A program made the position numbers and the translations under genes. A stretch of 64,000 bases of DNA from Psococerastis gibbosa (Eukaryota > Arthropoda > Insecta > Psocodea > Psocidae), in assembly GCA_963971405.1 (NCBI GenBank), contig OZ020491.1, positions 23,058,855 through 23,122,854 of the forward strand, given 5' to 3'. This document shows positions 3,240-62,530 of this stretch, one piece after another (positions within the stretch are counted from its first letter, which is position 1; the number at the start of each line of letters is the position of its first letter). The notes beneath the pieces are model-generated. The model did not search any database and had not been told where the DNA came from. It saw only the letters and a list, made by a program, of their open reading frames with translations.

Positions 3240-4367
3240 AGAAGTTGCACCCTGGGATATTGAAGTGGAAGGTTAAAAAGGTTATGTGCCTCATTTCGGA
3301 ATGCGTTATTGATGTCTGACATTCTCGTTGGTGTTAAATTGGACGTGGAAACGGAAAAAGGCTGGATTGGACAATGGATTTTTCAATATTTTACTTATAA
3401 ATAAATAAGGACTTTTTATTGTTTCTATTATTAAGCCAACCTAGCGAAGTTAGGGCTATAAAGCCCTCTCTTACACTCAACTAGGAAGGCCCGAGACCGC
3501 CTGCTTTACATGCCCTCCGAAGTATGGCCAGAAAATGTAGCCAGTGTGGGACTCAAACCAACAACCTTTCGGGTGAAAGTCAGAGTCCGTACCACTGCGC
3601 TACATGTCCATCCACTTATAGAAGCTGGTGAATGTTTTTTGACGTGAGAACGTCTAATAAATCAATAAACGCTGGCTTGAACACTGGGTGCATGCACGAA
3701 AAAGTGTTTCGCACTCGCTTACGCTCATTGTCCGTTACGCCGCATCTTAGTGTGGTTTTAATTGCTTATGACAATAACAATTTTTTTTTTCCATTTTTTT
3801 GAATTTATTTATTTATTTTTGTTTTGACGTTGTCACGTTAAACTATCGTCCGTAAATCGACTTTACAGACAACCAATTTTTTTTTTAATTTCATGCATTG
3901 CGAGGAAGGTTATGTGCCTAATTTTGGAATGAGTTACTGATGTCCGACAGTCTCGTTGGTGTTTAATGGGACTAGGAAACGGAAAGAGACTGGATTGAAC
4001 TATTGATTTTACAATATTTAAATTGTAGAAGCAGGTGATGGTTTAATTTTTACTTTCATGCATTGCAAGGAAGGTTATGTGCCTCATTTTGGAATGAGTT
4101 ATTGATGTCCGACAGTTTCGTTGGTGTTAAATTGGACTTGGAAACGGAAAGAGACTGGATTGAACTATAGATTTTACAATATTTCACTTATAGAAGTTGG
4201 TGAATGTTTTTTTTTTTAATTTCATACATTGCGAGAAAGGTTACGTGCCTCATTTCGGAATGAGTTATTGATGTCCGACAGTTTCGTTGGTGTTAAATTG
4301 GACTTGGCAACGGAAAGAGACTGGATTGAACAATAGGTTTTACGATATTTTATAGAAGCTGGTGAAT

Positions 4368-4402
<35 letters not shown>

Positions 4403-11661: not shown

Positions 11662-11934
11662 AACATTTTGTATGGAAACATGTACAGTAGCCTGCATGAA
11701 ATAAAATGCTGTCAATTTGGAAGCGGAAATTTCCCAACACCAGAAACAGATATGCAGAGACAGACACTCAATTGTGATCAAAGCAATTTCTCCCATTTTC
11801 CCCAACTTTTTTGCTTCCATCTAGAAATTCGTGCCATCACTGAATCGACCTGGAACGATTGAACGAATTGGCAAAATAATTAATTACGCGTGTGCTACGC
11901 ATCTTTTCTACGCATGAACGAACATATATAATAA

Positions 11935-12245
11935 TTTTTTTTTTTTCTTTTCCTTGTCCAGTATTCCCTGGACAAGGAGCATATATTACAAAAATACAAT
12001 ACATAATAATAACATCCCGCATCCCCAAGCTAGCGCTTATTTGGGACAAAAGACTCATACTGTGCTGCTAAACAAGGCTTAATCATTTATTTTTGTTATT
12101 TATTTATAATGTTTATTTTATTTTTATTTTTATTTTAACTTGTTATTTTAATGTCAGTTTTATTATTATTATTAACTCCATTGACCAGCCATCTTTTTAT
12201 ACCCGCTTTTAACTCACCCATCTGTTTAAATTTTTTCATTATAAT
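11935..12245 (-). mobile_element. 3' untranslated end of a Jockey/CR1-like LINE
   Basis: Nearly identical to the 3' end of the larger LINE at 47885-48838. It holds the terminal hairpin CCTTGTCC/GGACAAGG (11953-11978), CATCCCGCATCCCCAAGC, and the last few codons of the reading frame near 12180-12235. The copy is 5'-truncated after about 310 bp. Confidence 0.75.
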
Positions 12246-12377
12246 AATAATAATGCGTGTATTTCTCAAAAAAACATAACAAATTTTACTGAACCGGTGC
12301 CAAAAAGGCGCGTTGGGATCACCACACAATTTACTGTCGTAGGTTATTTACTAGTTCGTCACACTAACAATATTTTT

Positions 12378-12730
12378 TTAATCTGTACCTGTGAGCAGAC
12401 TTATAATATGGTTCTTAATGATAGACAAGGTAATATTTTCATTGTATCCGGCCCTGATCATTTCATTGTAGTAACTCAAACCTCGATAGTTGACAGAATT
12501 TCTGCTGTGTGTTAATTTGTAATTAGGAGCCGTGAGGAATCCACGTCCTGTTTGCCTAGTGCTTATGTTATTAGCAGAAATTCTGTCAACTTGGAAGTTA
12601 CTCAAGTTGGATACAACCATTGTCAGTAAAATTTTCTTGTATAATAGCTCAAATGACAAAATTCCTAACTCCTTAAATATTATCCTCGTACTAACATTGT
12701 AACCTGTTTTATTGAGCATTCTCATGGCAA
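12378..12730 (-). pseudogene. LINE reverse transcriptase C-terminal remnant
   Basis: A 115-codon minus-strand frame begins RMLNKTGYNVSTRIIFKELG and continues with LSFELLYKK, a basic stretch with GRGFLTAPNYKLTHSRNSVN and a YNEMI-like block. This is the usual C-terminal signature of Jockey/CR1-type LINEs (a 'P-T-R' helix, then 'G..YYN.LP'). The P and LP residues of the last block are degraded. Only the region after the polymerase core remains. Confidence 0.65.
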
Positions 12731-12930
12731 ATTTTTGGCATTTTTTGCTTTTATCTTACTTGTTAAAAATGGTATAGGAAGCGATGTTTTTACACACGTC
12801 AAAGAATCCAGAGACGAGCAGAACTGAAATAAATAAAGCATTCTCGAGAAGAAAAAGAAAGTAACATCGAAAAAGGGACTTTTACTGCAATCAAAAACCA
12901 GTAACAAGTCCCAATTTTGATCAACACCCA

Positions 12931-13535
12931 ATTTCGTCTTTCTTTTTCAACTCTTTTTGCCCCCCATAGGAATTCGAATCATCTCTCTGAATAGACTTGA
13001 AATGAGCCTTTCCAGTTCCATCACGAGTTCATCTTCTTTGTAACTATATTCGCCAATTAAAAGTAAATTCGTGACAGGTGGAAGAAAAGGCTAACAACAC
13101 CTTTAAATTATTTTGTGTCGACGATATTTGGGAGAGAGGAAGCGGCGTGGAAACGTGATGTCTGGTTTTTGTACCGGGAAAAGGAAGAAAAGTAGGGGAG
13201 GGTGCGGGGGCAAGGGGTGGAAAGAGGAAAAGGTTCTCAAATTATTGGTAAATTGATCAGGTTCGGGGAGGGGGGGGGGGAGGTCTTCGATGGATTCTGT
13301 GAAAGTTTTTTTAGAGGAAAATCTATTTGCTGCTTCACAGACACACGAGACATTGTAATAATATATTGTGTAGTTCTGTATCGCGATTCGCGATTCAAAA
13401 ATACAAGTATAAGTTCTGTCATGTTGATTTTTTGTATATTATTTGTTGCGCTGACAATTTATTGACGTGTTAATTGCATAATAATGATTCACTCTTGACT
13501 GCTAGACCTATAAATACTAACTTTTACTTTTTAAT
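12931..13535. other. Unassigned sequence with poly-G tract
   Basis: No gene seen. A poly-G tract lies near 13267-13280, and G-rich sequence spans 13130-13290. Confidence 0.4.
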
Positions 13536-20779: not shown

Positions 20780-22015
20780 ATTAATTACTTAGTATAGTGT
20801 TTGAATTGTGCTTACGCCCAAATTACATAATTTTAATTTTGTTTTCTTAATAGCTGTTCCTATAGGTAGTTTAATCGGTGTTTCTTTGAAGGCGATAAAA
20901 CTGATGTTTTGTGGTAATATCATGATACCGTGATCGTGTGTTTGAGCCCCACTCTGTCCCTATTTATATTTATTTCCTTTTTCAGATGCAATGTTCTATA
21001 ATGCATATTGCCTCCACAAGCTAAGTCATTATAATGTATTATATTTGTTTGTACATAGTATAGTATATTTTCTACCATTTGATCCAATAATATTCCTAAA
21101 TGTATAAAAGTAGGTTTAACAAAAACAGTTAATAAATGTTTCCAATTAACCACTTCAGTAAACCTACTGTAGGTCCTGAAGGACTTTTCAAGACTCTGGG
21201 TCTACTTATAGTGGCCCATAGGTGCCCAATGCCAAAGACCCCATGGATTTTGGATATTATTTGTATTGTTTCCGAATGAAATTTTCGCCATGGGCAAACT
21301 GGTATATGTCCTCGATGTCAACCTACACCGGCTACAAGCGATAATGGACAAGCTATTGCCGTTGTACAGTGATACGAAGCTAAGCAGAAAAGCCTATCAT
21401 TGCCACGATTTGAACCCACAACCTTATTTGAAGTTCAAAGAGCCAACTTTGAAATTTAGTCAACCATGCAGACCCGGAGATGCCACTTAAAGAAACAGAA
21501 TTCGCTTTTAAGCAGAAAAGGGGTGAGAAATGAAACAACTCTGTCAAAAGTTACAGGAACTTGTCTTTTATATGGAGGAAAATGCGCGGGAAAGTACAAC
21601 TTTTCCCCGGAAAATTTCCATCCGCAAGCAACATGAGAATACTGACGTTGTTTAAATATTTAATATTTGAGCGAAACATTAGCATTTAAGCCAGTTCAAA
21701 ATGAAACTGAAACGTTAGAAATTATTCCTTCTATCGTATGATCTTTAACAAGGCGGAATGAAGCTTTGGTTTTCCTATTAAAAATTAAAAAGTTTTAACT
21801 TTAAAGAATTCTCAAGTAGACTTTAAAGGCGGGCTCTAGTGTTTACCCGTTATCATTGCCATCTTTATAATTACCGTTTGTCTTGTCTCCGTGGATTCTT
21901 TAATTGAATTCTGTACTCGCAACTTCTTCTTCGCGCACTTTAACTTTTTAAGCTCGCGATTGTGTTCTTTGAACGGAAAGAGGCTTTTTTTATTCTAGCA
22001 ACACCCGGGATCTTG
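20780..22015. other. No gene or clear repeat seen
   Basis: AT-rich. Frames at 20920-21153 and 21266-21490 lack recognisable motifs. Confidence 0.4.
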
Positions 22016-22016
22016 G

Positions 22017-22930
22017 AAAGTACTATATAGTCTTCGTGTAGGTGAGGACTGGCGGAGGGCCTGACTTGCGAATGCGAACAACAACAAGACGCCGGCCTCT
22101 TTCTGGTTTGCCCGAGACTAGAAGAAGATGTGTCCCAGACAGATCATTCAGATGGCAATGACAAAGCCATCCAGACCGCAATGGACCCGGACACGTTAAG
22201 TAAGTCTTCTTTTACTGCCACCGCACCAGTGCCACAGGCTACAGATCGCCGTGAGCTTCAACTTTTGGTGCTATGTAATTCCAGACGCTCATCAATGGGA
22301 GCACTGTAGTCTTCTTGCAAAGTACTGTACAGTCTTCGTGAAGGTGGGGAATAGCGGAGGACCCGAATTGCGAATGCGAACAACAACAAGACGCCGGCCT
22401 CTTTCTGGTTTGCCCGAGACTAGAAGAAGATGTGTCCCAGACAGATCATTCAGATGCCAATGACAAAGCCATCCAGACCGCAATAGACCCGGACACGTTA
22501 AGTAAGTGTTCGTTTACTGCCACCGCACCGGTGCCACAGGCTACAGATCGCTGTGAGCTTCAACTTTTGGTGCTATGTAATTCCAGACACTCATCAATGG
22601 GAGCACTGTAGTCTTCTTGCAAAGTACTGTACAGTCTTCGTGAAGGTGCGGAATAGCGGAGGACCCGAATTGCGAATGCAAACAACAAGACAACGGCCAC
22701 TTTCTGGTTTGCCCGAGACAAGACGAAGCTGTGTCCCAGACAGATCTTGCCAATGACAAGACCATCCAGGCCGCAATGCTTTGGATCAACGTGTCCTAGG
22801 CCCGAACACGTTAAGTAAGTAAGTAATTCTTCTTTTACTGCCACCGCACCGGTGCCACAGGCCACAGCTCGCTGTGAGCTTCAAATTTTGGCGCTAAGTA
22901 ATTCCAATCACACATCAATGGGAGTAGGTA
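22017..22930 (+). repeat. 302-bp tandem triplication of a LINE 3' end
   Basis: Three units with GCGAATGC at about 22068, 22370 and 22672, so the period is 302 bp. Each unit codes in the plus strand for ECEQQQDAGLFLVCPRLEED-like residues, the terminal zinc-knuckle region of a Jockey/R1-like LINE, then ACACGTTAAGTAAGT, which looks like a TAAG tail, and a non-coding spacer (GCCACCGCACC, CAATGGGAGCACTGTAGTC). Unit 3 has small deletions that break the frame. Confidence 0.8.
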
Positions 22931-26850: not shown

Positions 26851-27099
26851 TCTTGCAAATTTTGAATCTCCAGTAGAAACGGAAATCCAAAAAGCGACAT
26901 GAAAAGAAATAAAATAAATATCGGATGGTCTATTGTATGAAAGAATGTCCTGTTGATTCAAGAAGAAAATTTTTATCCTTTCTCCTGGAACTGGGTCTGG
27001 AGCAGGCTTTATTGTGTTTGACCATTCGTAAAAAAGGCGGTTACTTCCAATAAAAGCGTAGCGATGGAGCAGTTGTTAGAATGCTGTAGCACATGCTAA

Positions 27100-27477
27100 G
27101 GCGCCCATTCCACCGACCGGCTAGGGCTATTTACAAAAACGGTGACGTGGTAGCAGACATTCAAGACTTAGGTGGCGATTCCACCGACCTCGCATTGCAG
27201 AATGCAAATGACATTGACGGAAATTAGAATTTTTCTTTATATAGAAATCTTTTAAAATGTTTGTACTTAGCATATCCCATGACGCCATTTTTTAATTTTA
27301 GTTTGTTTGTGATTTTACTGCATGATCATTGATCAATTTTAACTATGGCATAGAGGAAAATAAACTTTTCCGTCAATTCTGCAATGCGAGATCGGTGGAA
27401 ACCCCACCTAAGTCTTGAATGTATGCTACCACGTCACTGTTTTTGTAAATAGCCCTTGCCGGTCGGCGGAATGGGCA
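27100..27477. mobile_element. Composite GGCG-type palindromic MITE, copy M3
   Basis: 378 bp with the same double-arm layout as the 18280 copy: outer GGCGCCCATTCCACCGACCG, inner GGTGGCGATTCCACCGACC, loop with ATTGATCAATTTTAACTATGG. The loop is in the opposite orientation to copy M2. The right terminus is eroded after GGAATGGGC. Confidence 0.78.
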
Positions 27478-56483: not shown

Positions 56484-56980
56484 GTGTGTTATGTAACATT
56501 TGTTTCTGCTGCATTGCTCTGTGGATGAATGATATGATCCATGTTATTGCTGTACTTACTGCAGTTGTTATGTGCGACAGTGTAGAGGCGGATTGCCGTT
56601 ATGGGCTTCATTGTTCAATGCCTCTCTGTTTTATATTATTGTTTTGCGCCTCTGTAACGCAATTGTGATATTATTATTTGTTTTCTCTGTATGCTGTAGT
56701 GTGAGGCTGTTTTAATTAAAAAAGTTTCAAATTATTTCTCTTGGCACTCGTATTTTTCGCAAATTTTGAAAAACTGAAAATTACTAATTAATTAATAAAT
56801 AAGTTTGGGTTTTGATGTCAATTTTTAAACATTGTCTATCCCATATACTGCTGTGTACACTGGTCCTAATAGTAAATAATAATTAATCAAATTAGAAATA
56901 ATCAAAAGATACAAAATGTCAGAGTAAGATGCATGACGCCATTATTTTTCTTTTCATTGTATTCCCGGGCACCTTGCCTT
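56484..56980. other. No gene seen
   Basis: Unassigned. The cysteine-rich 60-codon frame at 56486-56668 has a hydrophobic pattern but no homology I recognise. Confidence 0.35.
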
Positions 56981-56981
56981 T

Positions 56982-57747
56982 GGCGGGGTTTCCACCGACC
57001 TCTCATAGCAGAATGCACATACGTTGATGTGGTAGCAGATAACATTAATAAAGACGGGGTTTCCACCGACCTCTCATTGCAGAATGCAACTCTGTGCCGT
57101 AGTTAAAATTGATCAATGATCATAGAGTAAAATCACAAACAAACTAAAATTAAAAAATGGCGTCATGGGATATGTAAAGGCGCAGATTCCACCGACCGGC
57201 TGGGGCTAAATACAAAAACGGTGACGTGGTAGCAGACATTTATGACTTAGGCAGTGTCTCCACCGACCTCGCATTGCAGAATGCAAATGACATTGACGGA
57301 AATGTTTGTTTTACTCTATGCCATAGTTAAAATTGATCAATGATAATAGAGTAAAATCACAAGCAAACAAACTAAAATTAAAAAATGGCGTCGTGGGATA
57401 TGTTAATTACAAACATTTTAATAGATTTCCATAAAAAGAAAAACAAACATTTCCGTCAATGTCATTTGCATTCTGCAATGCTAGGTCGGTGGAAACCCCG
57501 TCTAAGTCTTGAATGTCTGTTACCTACCACGTCACCGTATTTGTATTTAGCCCTAGCCGGTCGGTGGAATATGCGCCAAAGTACAAACATTTTAATAGAT
57601 TTCTATAAAAAGAAAAATTCAAATTTCCGTCAATGTCATTTGCATTCTGCAATGAGAAGTCCGTCGAAACCCCGCCTAAGTCTTGAATGTCTGCTACCAC
57701 GTCAATGTATGAGCATTCTGCAATGAGAGGTCAGTGGAAACCCCGCC
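56982..57747. mobile_element. GGCG-type palindromic MITE, copy M10 (host of a nested copy)
   Basis: Outer element of the 53782 subtype: GGCGGGGTTTCCACCGACC with CACATACGTTGATGTGG at left, GGTCAGTGGAAACCCCGCC at right. It is split at its AATGGCGTCATGGGATATGT site by a complete second element (57179-57577); the sequence resumes as AAGTACAAACATTTTAATAG. Confidence 0.8.
57179..57577. mobile_element. Composite GGCG-type palindromic MITE nested in M10
   Basis: 399 bp: outer GGCGCAGATTCCACCGACCG, inner GGCAGTGTCTCCACCGACC, loop GATCAATGATAATAGAGTA, then complementary arms ending CGGTGGAATATGCGCC. The 113-codon frame at 57385-57726 spans both elements and is not a gene. Confidence 0.82.
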
Positions 57748-58255
57748 TCAATTTCACTACAACCACGGAGTCTCCCAGTGGCGGCAAATTTAAACAAACT
57801 AATCATCATTGACCGTGTACATGATAAATTTTGCCAGTAACATATCAGACTTGACACGCTAGCTGGTCTGATGGGATATGGCAATTGTTTGAAGCGGGTG
57901 TTGTGTTGCTCAGCTGTGGTAGAAAATACAGATACCCGAGCCATGTTTAAATACATGTTTAAATAAACAAATTTAGGCTTAAGTATAAGTTAAAATGAAA
58001 AGTTTTCATTTTACAGACGAAGACTCATTGATATTACTGCAAAATTGTTTGAAAAATAGGAGCGAAATAGTGGGTTTTTCGCCTGCAACCATACCATGAG
58101 ATTCCCTCTAAAAATAATCTCCTTTTATCAAAGATTGGCGATCATCATGGCAATTCCGACGCTTGAGACGGCTGCTCTGAAAAGGGACGTCGTGCTCTTG
58201 CCAAACTACTGCCCCAGGTATTTCATTCGGGCTCCTGCCGTGAGTCCTCTGTCCT
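57748..58255. other. No gene seen
   Basis: Unassigned sequence. Confidence 0.4.
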
Positions 58256-58501
58256 TTAGGCGGGGATTCCACCGACCGGCTAGGGCTAAATACAAAAACG
58301 GTGACATGGTAGCAGACATTCAAGACTTAGGCGGGGTTTCCACCGACCTCGCACTGCAGAATGCAAATGACATTGACGGAAATTTTTGTTTTACTCTATG
58401 CCATAGTTAACATTGATCAATGATCATACAGTAAAATCACAAACAAACAAACTATAATTAAAAAATAGCGTCATGGGGTATGTTAAGTACAAACATTTTA
58501 A

Positions 58502-60596
58502 TCTATCTTTATAAAAATCAAACCACTTTCCCGCGTGAGTATGTATGTATGTATGTATGTATGTATGTATGTATGTGGACACTTTTTTGACTCGCCATAA
58601 CTCGGGACCCACTGGTACCAGAAACTTGCGGCTACACTCAAAATTTAGAGAAAAATCGGGACATGGTTTTCGTGTAGGGCCGAACCTTAAAAATTGAACC
58701 TGATCAGGTACAGGAGCGATAATCGGTTCGAAAAATCCCATAAGAAAGCATTGGAGGGTTCAACGCAATGTTTTAGCCTGAGATTTGGGCCTACCTTAAC
58801 TTAAATTACATCACTGTCTTCGTCCATTCTTCCTCTTTCAGGCCATGCTATACATGATGTGATTGGGCAAGTGGTTCGACTTTGGGGGGTGGAAACGTGA
58901 GGGGGTGCGCCCAAATTTTCCGATTTTCAGCGAAAATAGGCCTTTTTCGACCGCGTTTTTGGGGGTGTTAATATCAATTCGAAAACTTGAAACTTCTTTA
59001 GTCCTTTTCCACCTTTCTTAGTCTTTTCAGACATGTATTCAGGTTTACTATACGCCTCTTCGTTTGGGCTCAGGTGAGTTGGTAAGCAGTCCCTGTTTTG
59101 ACGAAATACCGGTTTAAAGGGTACATTTCCAAATACATCCATAGAGTAAAAAAATTCCACAGCCAGCTGTTTTCAACCGAAATTATTTTTTAATGTCTCA
59201 TTAGAAGCAGTATGAAATAAGCTTTAAAACGAGTACACATACATAATTTCAATACCACCCCTTCACCCCTTAAACACGAGTGGAACACAAAATTGTTAGA
59301 AAATCAGGCGAAAAAATTCATTTCCAGCATTTCTATTTATAATTGCATGGGCGGGTGTTAAGCAATTTTTTGGGCAGATCTATCTACCTATCTACCTATC
59401 TTAATTTAATTTATAACTATGTCTTCGTCTATTCTTCCTCTTTTAACCCATGTTCAATTTATTGTTGAGCGATGAGAGGTTAGGCTTCGGCAGGCGAAGA
59501 AGTTGGGGTGTGCGCTTATTGATAAAGGAGTCATGGCGTCGCGTCGCGGGGGCGTGGCCTAATCAATTCGCGAACCATAATTACTACGCAATAATGAGAC
59601 ATGAACCTGCAGAGACTTTGAATTAAATTATTAACTTTTATTTTTACCTTTTTACGCCTCTTCGTTTGGGCTTAGGTGAGTTGGTAAGCAGTCCCTGTTT
59701 TGACGAAATACCGGTTTAAAGGGTACATTTCCAAATACATCCATAGAGTAAAAAAATTTCAACCGAAATTAATTTTTAATGTCTCATTAGAAGCAGTATG
59801 AATTAAGCTTTAAAACGAGTATAAATACATAATTTCAAAATCACCCCTTCACCCCTTAAACACGAGTGGAACACAAAATTGTTAAAAAATCAGGCGAAAA
59901 AATTAATTTCCAGCAATCCCATTTCAATTGCATGGGCGGGTTTAAAGCAATATTTTGGGCAGATGTAGATGGTCTATGTTAATTTAAATTATATCAGTGT
60001 CTTTGTCCGCTCTTCTTCTTTTAGGTCATGCCAAATTTGTCGTGATCAAGCAAGAGGTTCGGCTTTGGGGGTGGAAACGTGACGGGGTGCGCCCAAATTT
60101 TTCGATTTTCAGCGAAAATAGGCTTTTTCGGCCGCGTTTTCGGAGGTCTTGATATCATTTTGAAAACTTTAAACTACTTTAGTTCTCTTCCACCTGTCCT
60201 ACTCTTTCCAGAGATATATTCAGTTTAACTATCCGCCTCTTCGTTCGGGCTCAAGTGATTTGGTAAGCCATAGCCATCAGCGTTTTGGCGGAAAACAGGT
60301 CTAAAGTGTACCTTTGAAATTACAAGCATAGAGTAACAGGATTCCACAGCCTGACCTCTTCCACCAAAATGATTTGTTAATGTCTCATTAGAAGCAGTAT
60401 AAATTAACCAATTTTCAAAGTTGTTAACTGCTTCGTTTGGGTTTGGGGTCATTCACATAAGTCATGCGAGCCCCGAAGGGGCGAGCTGCGTAATGCCAAA
60501 TGGAACCACGTTAATGCGAGGCCCCGCAGGGGCGAGCTGCCGCCCGCGGCAGGCGCAAGGGGGGCGGGGCCGCGAAGCGGTCCCAAGCTCCGCTTG
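58502..60596 (+). mobile_element. Non-autonomous Helitron, unit 1 (2,095 bp)
   Basis: Starts TCTATCTTTATAAAAATCAA after A and ends CCAAGCTCCGCTTG. Near the 3' end are CCGCGAAGCGG (a hairpin at 60570-60580) and a terminal CAAGC/GCTTG mini-hairpin. A run of ATGT repeats follows the 5' end (58540-58575). The interior is built of modules that begin near TACGCCTCTTCG (59043, 59653, and diverged at 60232), so this unit has one module more than unit 2. Helitrons have a 5' TC, a 3' hairpin and CTRR end, and insert between A and T. Here the end is CTTG rather than CTRR. No Rep/helicase gene; frames with YIHTYIHT are the ATGT repeat. Confidence 0.8.
60463..60596 (+). repeat. GC-rich, multi-hairpin 3' terminus of Helitron unit 1
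   Basis: Three similar short palindromes in a row (GCCCCGAAGGGGCGAGCTGC, GCCCCGCAGGGGCGAGCTGC, GCCGCGAAGCGG) plus GCCGCCCGCGGCAGG. Base composition contrasts sharply with the AT-rich surroundings. Unit 2 has the same block at 61971-62103. Confidence 0.8.
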
Positions 60597-62103
60597 TCTA
60601 TCTTTATAAAAATCAAACCACTTTCCCGCGTGAGTATGTATGTATGTATGTATGTATGTATGTATGTGGACACTTTTTTGACTCGCCATAACTCGGGACC
60701 CACTGGCACCAGAAACTTGCGGATACACTCAAAATTTAGAGAAAAATCGGGACATGGTTTTCGTGTAGGGCCGAACCTTAAAAATTGAACCTGATCAGGT
60801 ACAGGAGCGATAATCGGTTCGAAAAATCCCATAAGAAAGCAATGGAGGGTTCAACGCAATGTTTCAGCCTGACATTTGGGCCTACCTTAACTTAAATTAC
60901 ATCACTGTCTTCGTCCATTCTTCCTCTTTCAGGCCATGCTATACATGATGTGATTGGGCAAGTGGTTCGACTTTGGGGGGTGGAAACGTGAGGGGGTGCG
61001 CCCAAATTTTCCGATTTTCAGCGAAAATAGGCCTTTTTCGACCGCGTTTTTGGGGGTGTTAATATCAATTCGAAAACTTCAAACTACTTTTGTTCTTTTC
61101 CACTGTTATTATTCTTTTCAGTCATATATTCAGTTTTGCTATGCGCCTTTTCGTTCGGGTTCAGGTGAGTTGGTAAGCAGTCCCTGTTTTGCCGAAAAAC
61201 CGGTTTAAAGGGTATATTTCCAAATACATGCATAGAGTAAAAAAATTCCACAGCCTGCAATTTTCCATCGAAATTAATTTTTAATCTCTCATTAGAAGCA
61301 GTATGAAATAAGCTTTAAAACGAGTATAACTACATAATTTCAAATTCACCCCTTCCCCCCTTAATCACGAGTGGAACACAAAGTTTTTAAAAATGACGCG
61401 AAAAAAACTGCATTTCTAGCTATCCCATTTAAATTGCATGGGTGGGTTTAAAGCAATATTTTGGGCAGATGTGGAAGGCCTATGTTAATTTAAATTATAT
61501 CAGTGTCTTTGTCCGCTCTTCTTCTTTTAGGTCATGCCAAATTTGTCGTGATCAAGCAAGAGGTTCGGCTTTGGGGGGTGGAAACGTGACGGGGTGCGCC
61601 CAAATTTTTCGATTTTCAGCGAAAATAGGCTTTTTCGGCCGCGTTTTCGGAGGTCTTGATATCATTTTGAAAACTTTAAACTACTTTAGTTCTCTTCCTC
61701 CTGTCTTACTCTTTCCAGAGATATATTCAGTTTAACTATCCGCCTCTTCGTTCGGGCTCAAGTGATTTGGTAAGCCATAGCCATCAGCGTTTTGACGGAA
61801 TACAGGTCTAAAGTGTACCTTTGAAATTACATGCATAGAGTAACAGGATTCCACAGCCTGACCTCTTCCACCAAAATGATTTGTTAATGTCTCATTAGAA
61901 GCAGTATAAATTAACCAATTTTCATAGTTGTTAACTGCTTCGTTTGGGTTTGGGGGCATTCACATAAGTCATGCGAGCCCCGAAGGGGCGAGCTGCGTAA
62001 TGCCAAATGGAACCACGTTAATGCGAGGCCCCGCAGGGGCGAGCTGCCGCCCGCGGCAGGCGCAAGGGGGGCGGGGCCGCGAAGCGGTCCCAAGCTCCGC
62101 TTG
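60597..62103 (+). mobile_element. Non-autonomous Helitron, unit 2 (1,507 bp), head-to-tail
   Basis: Begins at the base after unit 1 with the identical TCTATCTTTATAAAAATCAA and ends with the identical CCAAGCTCCGCTTG before T of the host (TAGATTTCT). The interior holds two modules (about 61138 and 61737). Sequence identity with unit 1 is high in the 5' ~500 bp and in the 3' ~640 bp. No coding capacity. Confidence 0.8.
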
Positions 62104-62255
62104 TAGATTTCTATAAAAAGAAAAATTATAATTTCCGTCAATGTCATTTGCATTCTGCAATGTGAGGTCGTTGGAAACCCCGCCTAAGTCTTGAATGTCT
62201 GCTACCACGTCACCGTTTTTGTATTTAGCCCTAGCCGGTCGGTGGAATCGGCGCC

Positions 62256-62530
62256 TAAATAATGTCCAATTGGACAAGGGACCAATGGGCCAACACAAGT
62301 AGGTCTAGGAACATAAAATGTTCTGCCCCAAGGTTTTCAACCAGGCTATTCTTCTTCTGCCCCTAGTCTTTTTATCTCCCCAGAAATATTACATGCAGAA
62401 GACGATACTAATCGGTCCTAATCACATGTCTGAAGAATGTTGGTTTCCGTTTCTTAACCATCACCCGCAACTTGACTTTAATCTGTGTCCTCTTGATGAG
62501 AAATAAATAAAACATAAAAAAAACTATTTC
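62256..62530. other. No gene seen
   Basis: Unassigned short stretch between the MITE and a LINE fragment. Confidence 0.4.

Follow-up and report, generated by a model that had tools for sequence, protein, structure and literature searches.

The feature at 58502..62103 of the window (the whole 64,000-nucleotide stretch of Psococerastis gibbosa DNA that was analysed) consists of two non-autonomous Helitrons that lie head to tail in a single A|T site of a MITE. The same junction recurs across the genome, and the arrays that contain it are best explained, with a probability of about 0.47, as having been built mainly by the repeated exact joining of elements to resident Helitron ends by the transposase. 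The origin of tandem Helitrons, by missed termination or by consecutive insertion, is left open in PMC2267711 and PMC5148889. The present family makes this origin countable, as it offers 39 exact junctions spread over 28 clusters, unit types that can be told apart, and a clean empty site.

Structure of the tandem pair and its host site

The pair comprises an upstream unit A and a downstream unit B, and parts of the host MITE flank it on both sides:

58258..58501, + strand: host MITE, left part, up to the A of the A|T target (outer border approximate)
58502..60596, + strand: unit A, upstream, non-autonomous Helitron of 2,095 bp, matching 1-1145 and 12111-13072 of the autonomous element
58502..58524, + strand: 5' terminus (LTS) of A, with a TC start and TATAAAA from base 9
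60555..60596, + strand: 3' terminus (RTS) of A, a 42-base hairpin including the CTTG end (from folding)
60583..60616, + strand: spacer-free head-to-tail junction, the 34-base search pattern (39 genome matches)
60597..62103, + strand: unit B, downstream, non-autonomous Helitron of 1,507 bp, matching 1-1011 and 11721-13072 of the autonomous element
60597..60619, + strand: 5' terminus (LTS) of B, with the same sequence as that of A
62062..62103, + strand: 3' terminus (RTS) of B, with the same sequence as the RTS of A (terminal 60 bases identical)
62104..62260, + strand: host MITE, right part, from the T of the A|T target, with TATA at +9 (outer border approximate)

The coordinates of both units and their abutment at 60596/60597 proved exact as originally predicted, with terminal 60 bases identical at both the 5' and 3' ends and 0 bases between the units. 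In their shared parts A and B are 6-10% divergent, and they carry different deletions. The two matches of B to the autonomous element overlap in a repeat, and B is a mosaic that is A-type at its first 19 diagnostic sites. Six open reading frames of the window had no Pfam match at E 0.01.

The flanks of the pair read ...ACATTTTAA | TAGATTTCT..., and the joined flanks were compared with six other aligned copies of the MITE, which were chosen from BLAST rows spanning the junction. The loop is uninterrupted in 6/6 of these copies, which bears out the claim of an A|T insertion without target duplication and with an empty-site control. The empty site is AA|TA in five of the copies and AA|AA in one (27099-27472, minus strand). 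The claim of at least six unbroken loops holds for related copies but not for exact ones, the exact empty-site 18-mer ACATTTTAATAGATTTCT having 4 occurrences in the window. Just upstream of the tandem, at 56977-57760, copies and fragments of the host MITE lie side by side. The window also contains tandem repeats at 22011-22746 (period 302, 2.4 copies, 93%) and 3877-4380 (period 165, 3.1 copies, 88%).

Ends, class and autonomous partner

The units share with canonical Helitrons the TC 5' end, insertion at A|T without target duplication, a hairpin near the 3' end, and an autonomous partner with a Rep (HUH, two Tyr) and a PIF1-type helicase. The hairpin occupies the last 42 bases, with the terminal CTTG in its stem, and folds at -14.6 kcal/mol (z = -3.37), a value equalled by 0 of 200 shuffles; a 95-base stretch folds no better than shuffles (z = -1.00). 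The window end is CTTG and not the usual CTRR, of which variants are recorded. Array stretches likewise end in CTTG, except for CCTG in L038 and TTTG in L039. This end is not taken to exclude a Helitron, because CTTG ends are recorded among Helraiser products and, as cited there, in maize (PMC4778049), and CTRY 3' ends are described for insect Hel1. The CTTG end and the terminal hairpin noted at the outset are real, and CTTG ends are already on record. The TT target of Helentrons and HINEs does not describe this family, as its target is A|T. With regard to the subterminal inverted repeats of that group, a BLAST comparison of A and of B, each with itself, gave direct repeats only. The assignment of the pair to a canonical-type (Helitron1-type) Helitron family is thus supported.

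The original identification of the units as Helitrons is supported by a 13,072-bp autonomous Helitron on contig C2, which is the kind of Rep/helicase copy that the note proposed to look for. Its ends are the same as those of A and B, and it has a Rep-helicase frame of 1,441 codons. A profile search of this copy identified Helitron_like_N (5.1e-56) and PIF1 (6.6e-66) domains, and also Pif1_2B. An HxH and a Tyr pair in YICKY, read by eye in the frame, presumably represent the HUH motif and the two Tyr of the Rep. The Rep-helicase aligns to the Helraiser chain of PDB 7lcc over 1,355 query residues, with an E value of 3.5e-259. The autonomous copy is itself the first unit of an array (autonomous-B-A), B and A directly following. 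A and B keep both ends of the autonomous element without its middle and, as judged from their sequences, are deletion derivatives of it. A second candidate autonomous copy, at C3:9072124, was rejected; it has a Rep stretch and the family 3' end downstream, and no family 5' end in the stretch taken.

Number and geometry of the junctions

The 409-Mb assembly (68 contigs) was searched with the two ends and the junction. The 22-base 3' end has 374 genome matches (up to 2 mismatches), the 31-base 5' end 158 (up to 3 mismatches), and the 34-base junction 39 (up to 3 mismatches), against 0 for the reversed control in each case. The junction is therefore not a chance sequence. The excess of family 3' ends over 5' ends, 374 vs 158, is a separate observation and suggests that the 5' end of many copies is of another kind or decayed. 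The 39 junctions fall into 28 clusters on 10 contigs, which amounts to 0.25 junctions per 5' end. By this count the tandem in the window is real and is no rarity in this genome. TTAGG arrays, a repeat that points to an arthropod, were seen near the end of contig C1.

The geometry of the junctions is strict. Among exact pairs of a right end and a left end in which at most 30 bases separate CCGCTTG from the TATA of the left end, which covers spacers up to 22, 33/33 are spacer-free, yet further A|T dinucleotides occur only a few bases away from the junctions. Head-to-head pairs (exact matches, spacers up to 14) and tail-to-tail pairs (exact matches, spacers up to 30) both numbered 0.

Insertion site and target motif

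Copies elsewhere in the genome end at the borders proposed for the window pair and follow the same insertion rule. A precedes 39/40 solo 5' ends (those fetched of the 60 solo ends among 100 listed of 158), and T follows 60/60 solo 3' ends (the solo ones among 100 listed of 374). The outer flanks of array stretches have A at the 5' side in 20/20 and T at the 3' side in 19/20; 3' flanks came from 20 of the 28 clusters, and the 20 5' flanks from 18 stretches, two of which gave two. The single array of these 20 with a 3' flank starting with C is L004 (C2:9985629-9990699).

A further preference is found on the 3' side of the site. Of 80 3' flanks, 5 were dropped (4 repeats of a site and 1 without the initial T), leaving 75 unique host sites. 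ATA starts at +5..+10 in 73/75 (AT-matched expectation 26.7), TATA in 57/75 (expectation 10.2), and TATAA in 34/75 (expectation 4.5). The expectations are based on 10,132 oriented A|T sites in the window, and the range +5..+10 was picked after the flanks had been viewed. Within the first 20 bases, 61 sites contain a TATA; the first one starts at +6..+8 in 40 of them and at +3 in 11. Insertions thus prefer an A|T with TATA about 6-8 bases on, and the element's own 5' end resembles such a target, with TATA at +9 as in the window MITE. Motif counting with AT-matched controls replaced a position matrix of the 3' flank, which blurred the motif owing to its variable distance; with that matrix, for which background scores are poorly calibrated, the score of the own 5' end is equalled or exceeded by 5.7% of background A|T sites.

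Single sites have also been used more than once. The arrays L003 (AB) and L039 (BA) occupy an identical position in a host repeat, to the nucleotide, although the copies concerned are only 78% alike over ~800 bp, and a solo element at C1:23877586 lies in a copy of the site in the window's MITE, which points to independent insertions at one site. In the dispersed host repeat with the site CTTTCCTTA|TACT, the same nucleotide is used by L003, L039, C1:27416297, C12:9590323, and L048, the last having only the last 18 upstream bases in common with the repeat.

Resemblance to a target was considered as the sole cause of the junctions and rejected. If the motif is weighted 27-fold and the 158 own ends are set against about 69 million oriented A|T sites, 6e-5 of events should be self-insertions, compared with the observed junction ratio of 0.25. 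The estimate is rough, each junction being counted as one event and the background being taken from the window, and on this rough basis self-insertion through the motif alone would be thousands of times rarer than observed. Together with the 33/33 spacer-free pairs and the lack of head-to-head and tail-to-tail pairs in the searches above, this shows that the junctions are not due to chance, AT-richness, or the motif alone.

Composition and age of the arrays

Two main unit types occur, A (about 2.1 kb) and B (about 1.5 kb), and the orders AB, BA, ABA, BAB, AAB, AA, and BB were seen, plus one array that contains 7 junctions. Of the 27 neighbour pairs that could be typed, 19 combine unlike types, a mild excess (P = 0.024); the tally leaves aside the damaged B-A junction of L040 and any junction next to a unit that was partial, untyped, or not fetched. 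The excess may stem from mobile dimers, or from a faster loss of like pairs by recombination. In 9/19 unlike pairs both units are clean types (at most 3 discordant of up to 135 diagnostic sites), and the other 10, the window pair with its mosaic B among them, include a mosaic unit.

Units of the same type within an array show a wide range of divergence. With the 8-unit array excluded, A units are 0.53 and 0.73% apart (mean of all A pairs 0.79%), and B units are 5.78, 4.90, 0.61, and 0.67% apart (B mean 3.1%). In the tree, the B units on either side of the A in array L035 (B-A-B) group as mutual nearest relatives, with support of 0.993. The array at C19:7548300-7563100 (L049+L050) has about 8 head-to-tail units with 7 junctions, the last unit being only 186 bp. 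Two of its B units are identical and two of its A units are 0.05% apart, unlike in the other arrays examined, and this near-identity may reflect either recent local amplification or an assembly effect.

Unit age was taken as the number of changes from the type majority (small counts, 2-12 per unit), the 8-unit array and older B lineages being left out. Among 26 units in 11 arrays, ages are unequal within arrays (deviance 27.7, df 15, P = 0.024), and the ages of array mates are uncorrelated (permutation P = 0.90). A common age of array mates was thus not found in this set. The upstream unit is older in 11 of 15 adjacent pairs of this age set (P = 0.12; order permutation P = 0.087), and all 23 pairs give a draw (older downstream 11, upstream 10, ties 2), so neither set shows a significant direction.

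In the B-A array L033 (C1:30044000-30050500), the two units are seemingly reciprocal A/B hybrids near the 5' end, as after a crossover between a circle and a resident element, with breakpoints near diagnostic sites 19 and 37. A near-identical mosaic pattern is present in L034, L035, L038, and L041, and the break after site 19 also in L001 and the 8-unit array. Because these patterns recur from locus to locus, a good part of the mosaicism probably arose before the arrays.

Origin of the arrays

In the favoured mechanism, the family would be moved in trans by the Helraiser-like Rep-helicase of the autonomous copy. The transposase would have to recognise its own ends and nick them, at A|TC on the left and at CTTG|T on the right, and may also use the end of a resident element to accept an incoming circle. 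Where a resident left end follows an A, it would offer an A|T site with a downstream TATA, like host targets. Joining at the resident left end or right end would give an identical spacer-free junction. Arrays would then grow mostly by single units, and the window pair would represent two such joining steps within one MITE. That neighbours are often unlike in type and age is modest evidence for separate joining events over one rolling-circle run. The identical or near-identical units in L035 and the 8-unit array fit multimers or local amplification instead.

A stronger form of this mechanism, which is held with rather less confidence and is at present doubtful, is that the transposase prefers resident ends as landing sites and so builds mixed arrays, including that of the autonomous copy, unit by unit, while host A|T-TATA targets are weak imitations of the left end. 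If this were true, donor recognition and target choice would be one act. If ends are targets, the family would have a built-in route to composite elements and arrays, and the target motif would be a direct test of left-end reading by the Rep domain. Counting against left-end targeting are the position of the element's own TATA, at +9 vs the host peak at +6..+8, and the 5.7% of background A|T sites with a score no lower than that of the own end. Moreover, insertion at a resident 5' end should leave the downstream unit older, and the lean to older upstream units in 11/15 pairs runs against this; such a lean would be expected if units joined at the G|T site of the resident 3' end.

The arrays could also have formed before insertion, as heteromeric multimers that entered an A|T site in one step, either because an A-B tandem was copied whole with its inner 3' end bypassed or because circles fused at their identical junctions. 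An A-B circle could be opened at either junction to give AB or BA, and both orders occur, as do the trimers ABA and BAB. The excess of unlike neighbours (19/27) could equally come from a mobile A-B dimer, L035 holds two B units that are nearest relatives, and both end bypass and circles are shown for Helraiser (PMC4778049). Such multimers are nevertheless unlikely as the main source, as ages within arrays are unequal and uncorrelated and sister B units in the tree have different neighbours (L040_u1 with L042_u3; L045_u1 with L047_u1). A further conceivable source is unequal crossing-over, or homologous recombination between an excised circle and a resident element. It would account for the apparent reciprocal hybrids of L033 and for the mosaic unit in 10/19 unlike pairs, including the A-type first 19 sites of the window's B. 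Crossovers in the body should leave hybrids, yet 9/19 unlike pairs are clean, and much of the mosaicism is common to several loci and so probably predates the arrays, which makes recombination a distinctly improbable origin, above all for the clean pairs.

Rolling-circle over-replication of one element by missed termination, which would produce homomeric concatemers, has been put forward for the bat and Bombyx arrays, as cited in PMC4067079, and the two near-identical unit pairs of the 8-unit array are in keeping with it. It predicts near-identical neighbours, whereas 19/27 typed neighbours are unlike and two B-B pairs are 4.9-5.8% apart; it also leaves the autonomous-B-A array unexplained. 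For the window pair it is disfavoured by the divergence of 6-10% between the shared parts of A and B and by their different deletions, and as a general account its probability is judged marginally lower still than that of recombination. An assembly artefact, in which separate copies or alleles were joined by the assembler, is very improbable given the spread of the 39 junctions over 28 clusters and 10 contigs, the mutations specific to single units, the A and T at the outer flanks, and the uninterrupted MITE family around the window pair. Repeated joining at resident ends thus remains the preferred reading of the arrays.

Comparison with known systems

Tandem or abutting Helitrons are on record from bat, maize, Bombyx, and fungi (PMC4778049, PMC2267711, PMC4067079, PMC5148889). 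In the openly licensed literature searched, no family was found with this share of exact mixed arrays together with a left-end-like TATA target. Tandem Helitrons are thus known, and the frequency, mixing, and target motif seen here make this family a strong and unusually testable variant.

Helraiser/Helibat of the bat (PMC4778049, PMC5876387; PDB 7lcc) resembles the present family in its TC start, A|T sites, and 3' hairpin. Helraiser also has a preference for AT-rich sites that is strongest on the 3' flank, and PMC4778049 describes insertions with the 5' end of one Helitron against the 3' end of another and a circle junction of the same head-to-tail form as the junctions described here. In contrast, the present family ends in CTTG and not CTAG, has TATA at about +6..+8 beyond AT-richness, and shows 39 exact tandem junctions against 158 5' ends. 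New Helraiser insertions are described as not clustered around donor sites, so that system lends no support to local self-targeting.

In the maize r1 region, two different Helitrons lie head to tail without a spacer, as in the present window, and are taken as consecutive insertions (PMC2267711). The same report names both possible acceptors, namely G|T at the 3' end of the first element or A|T formed by the host A and the T of the second element. The maize r1 pair is one case, whereas dozens from one family are available here, with orientation and spacer controls.

Self-insertion and tandem copies are likewise discussed for Fusarium FoHeli and for Metarhizium (PMC5148889), and for the three tandem copies of Metarhizium acridum both insertion at the 5' end and a rolling circle are considered. 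These are Helitron2 types with other termini and targets, and single tandem cases, unlike the family here. Helentrons and HINEs (PMC4067079) share with it the rolling-circle class, a 3' hairpin, and an internal microsatellite; they insert at TT and have subterminal inverted repeats, whereas the present family inserts at A|T.
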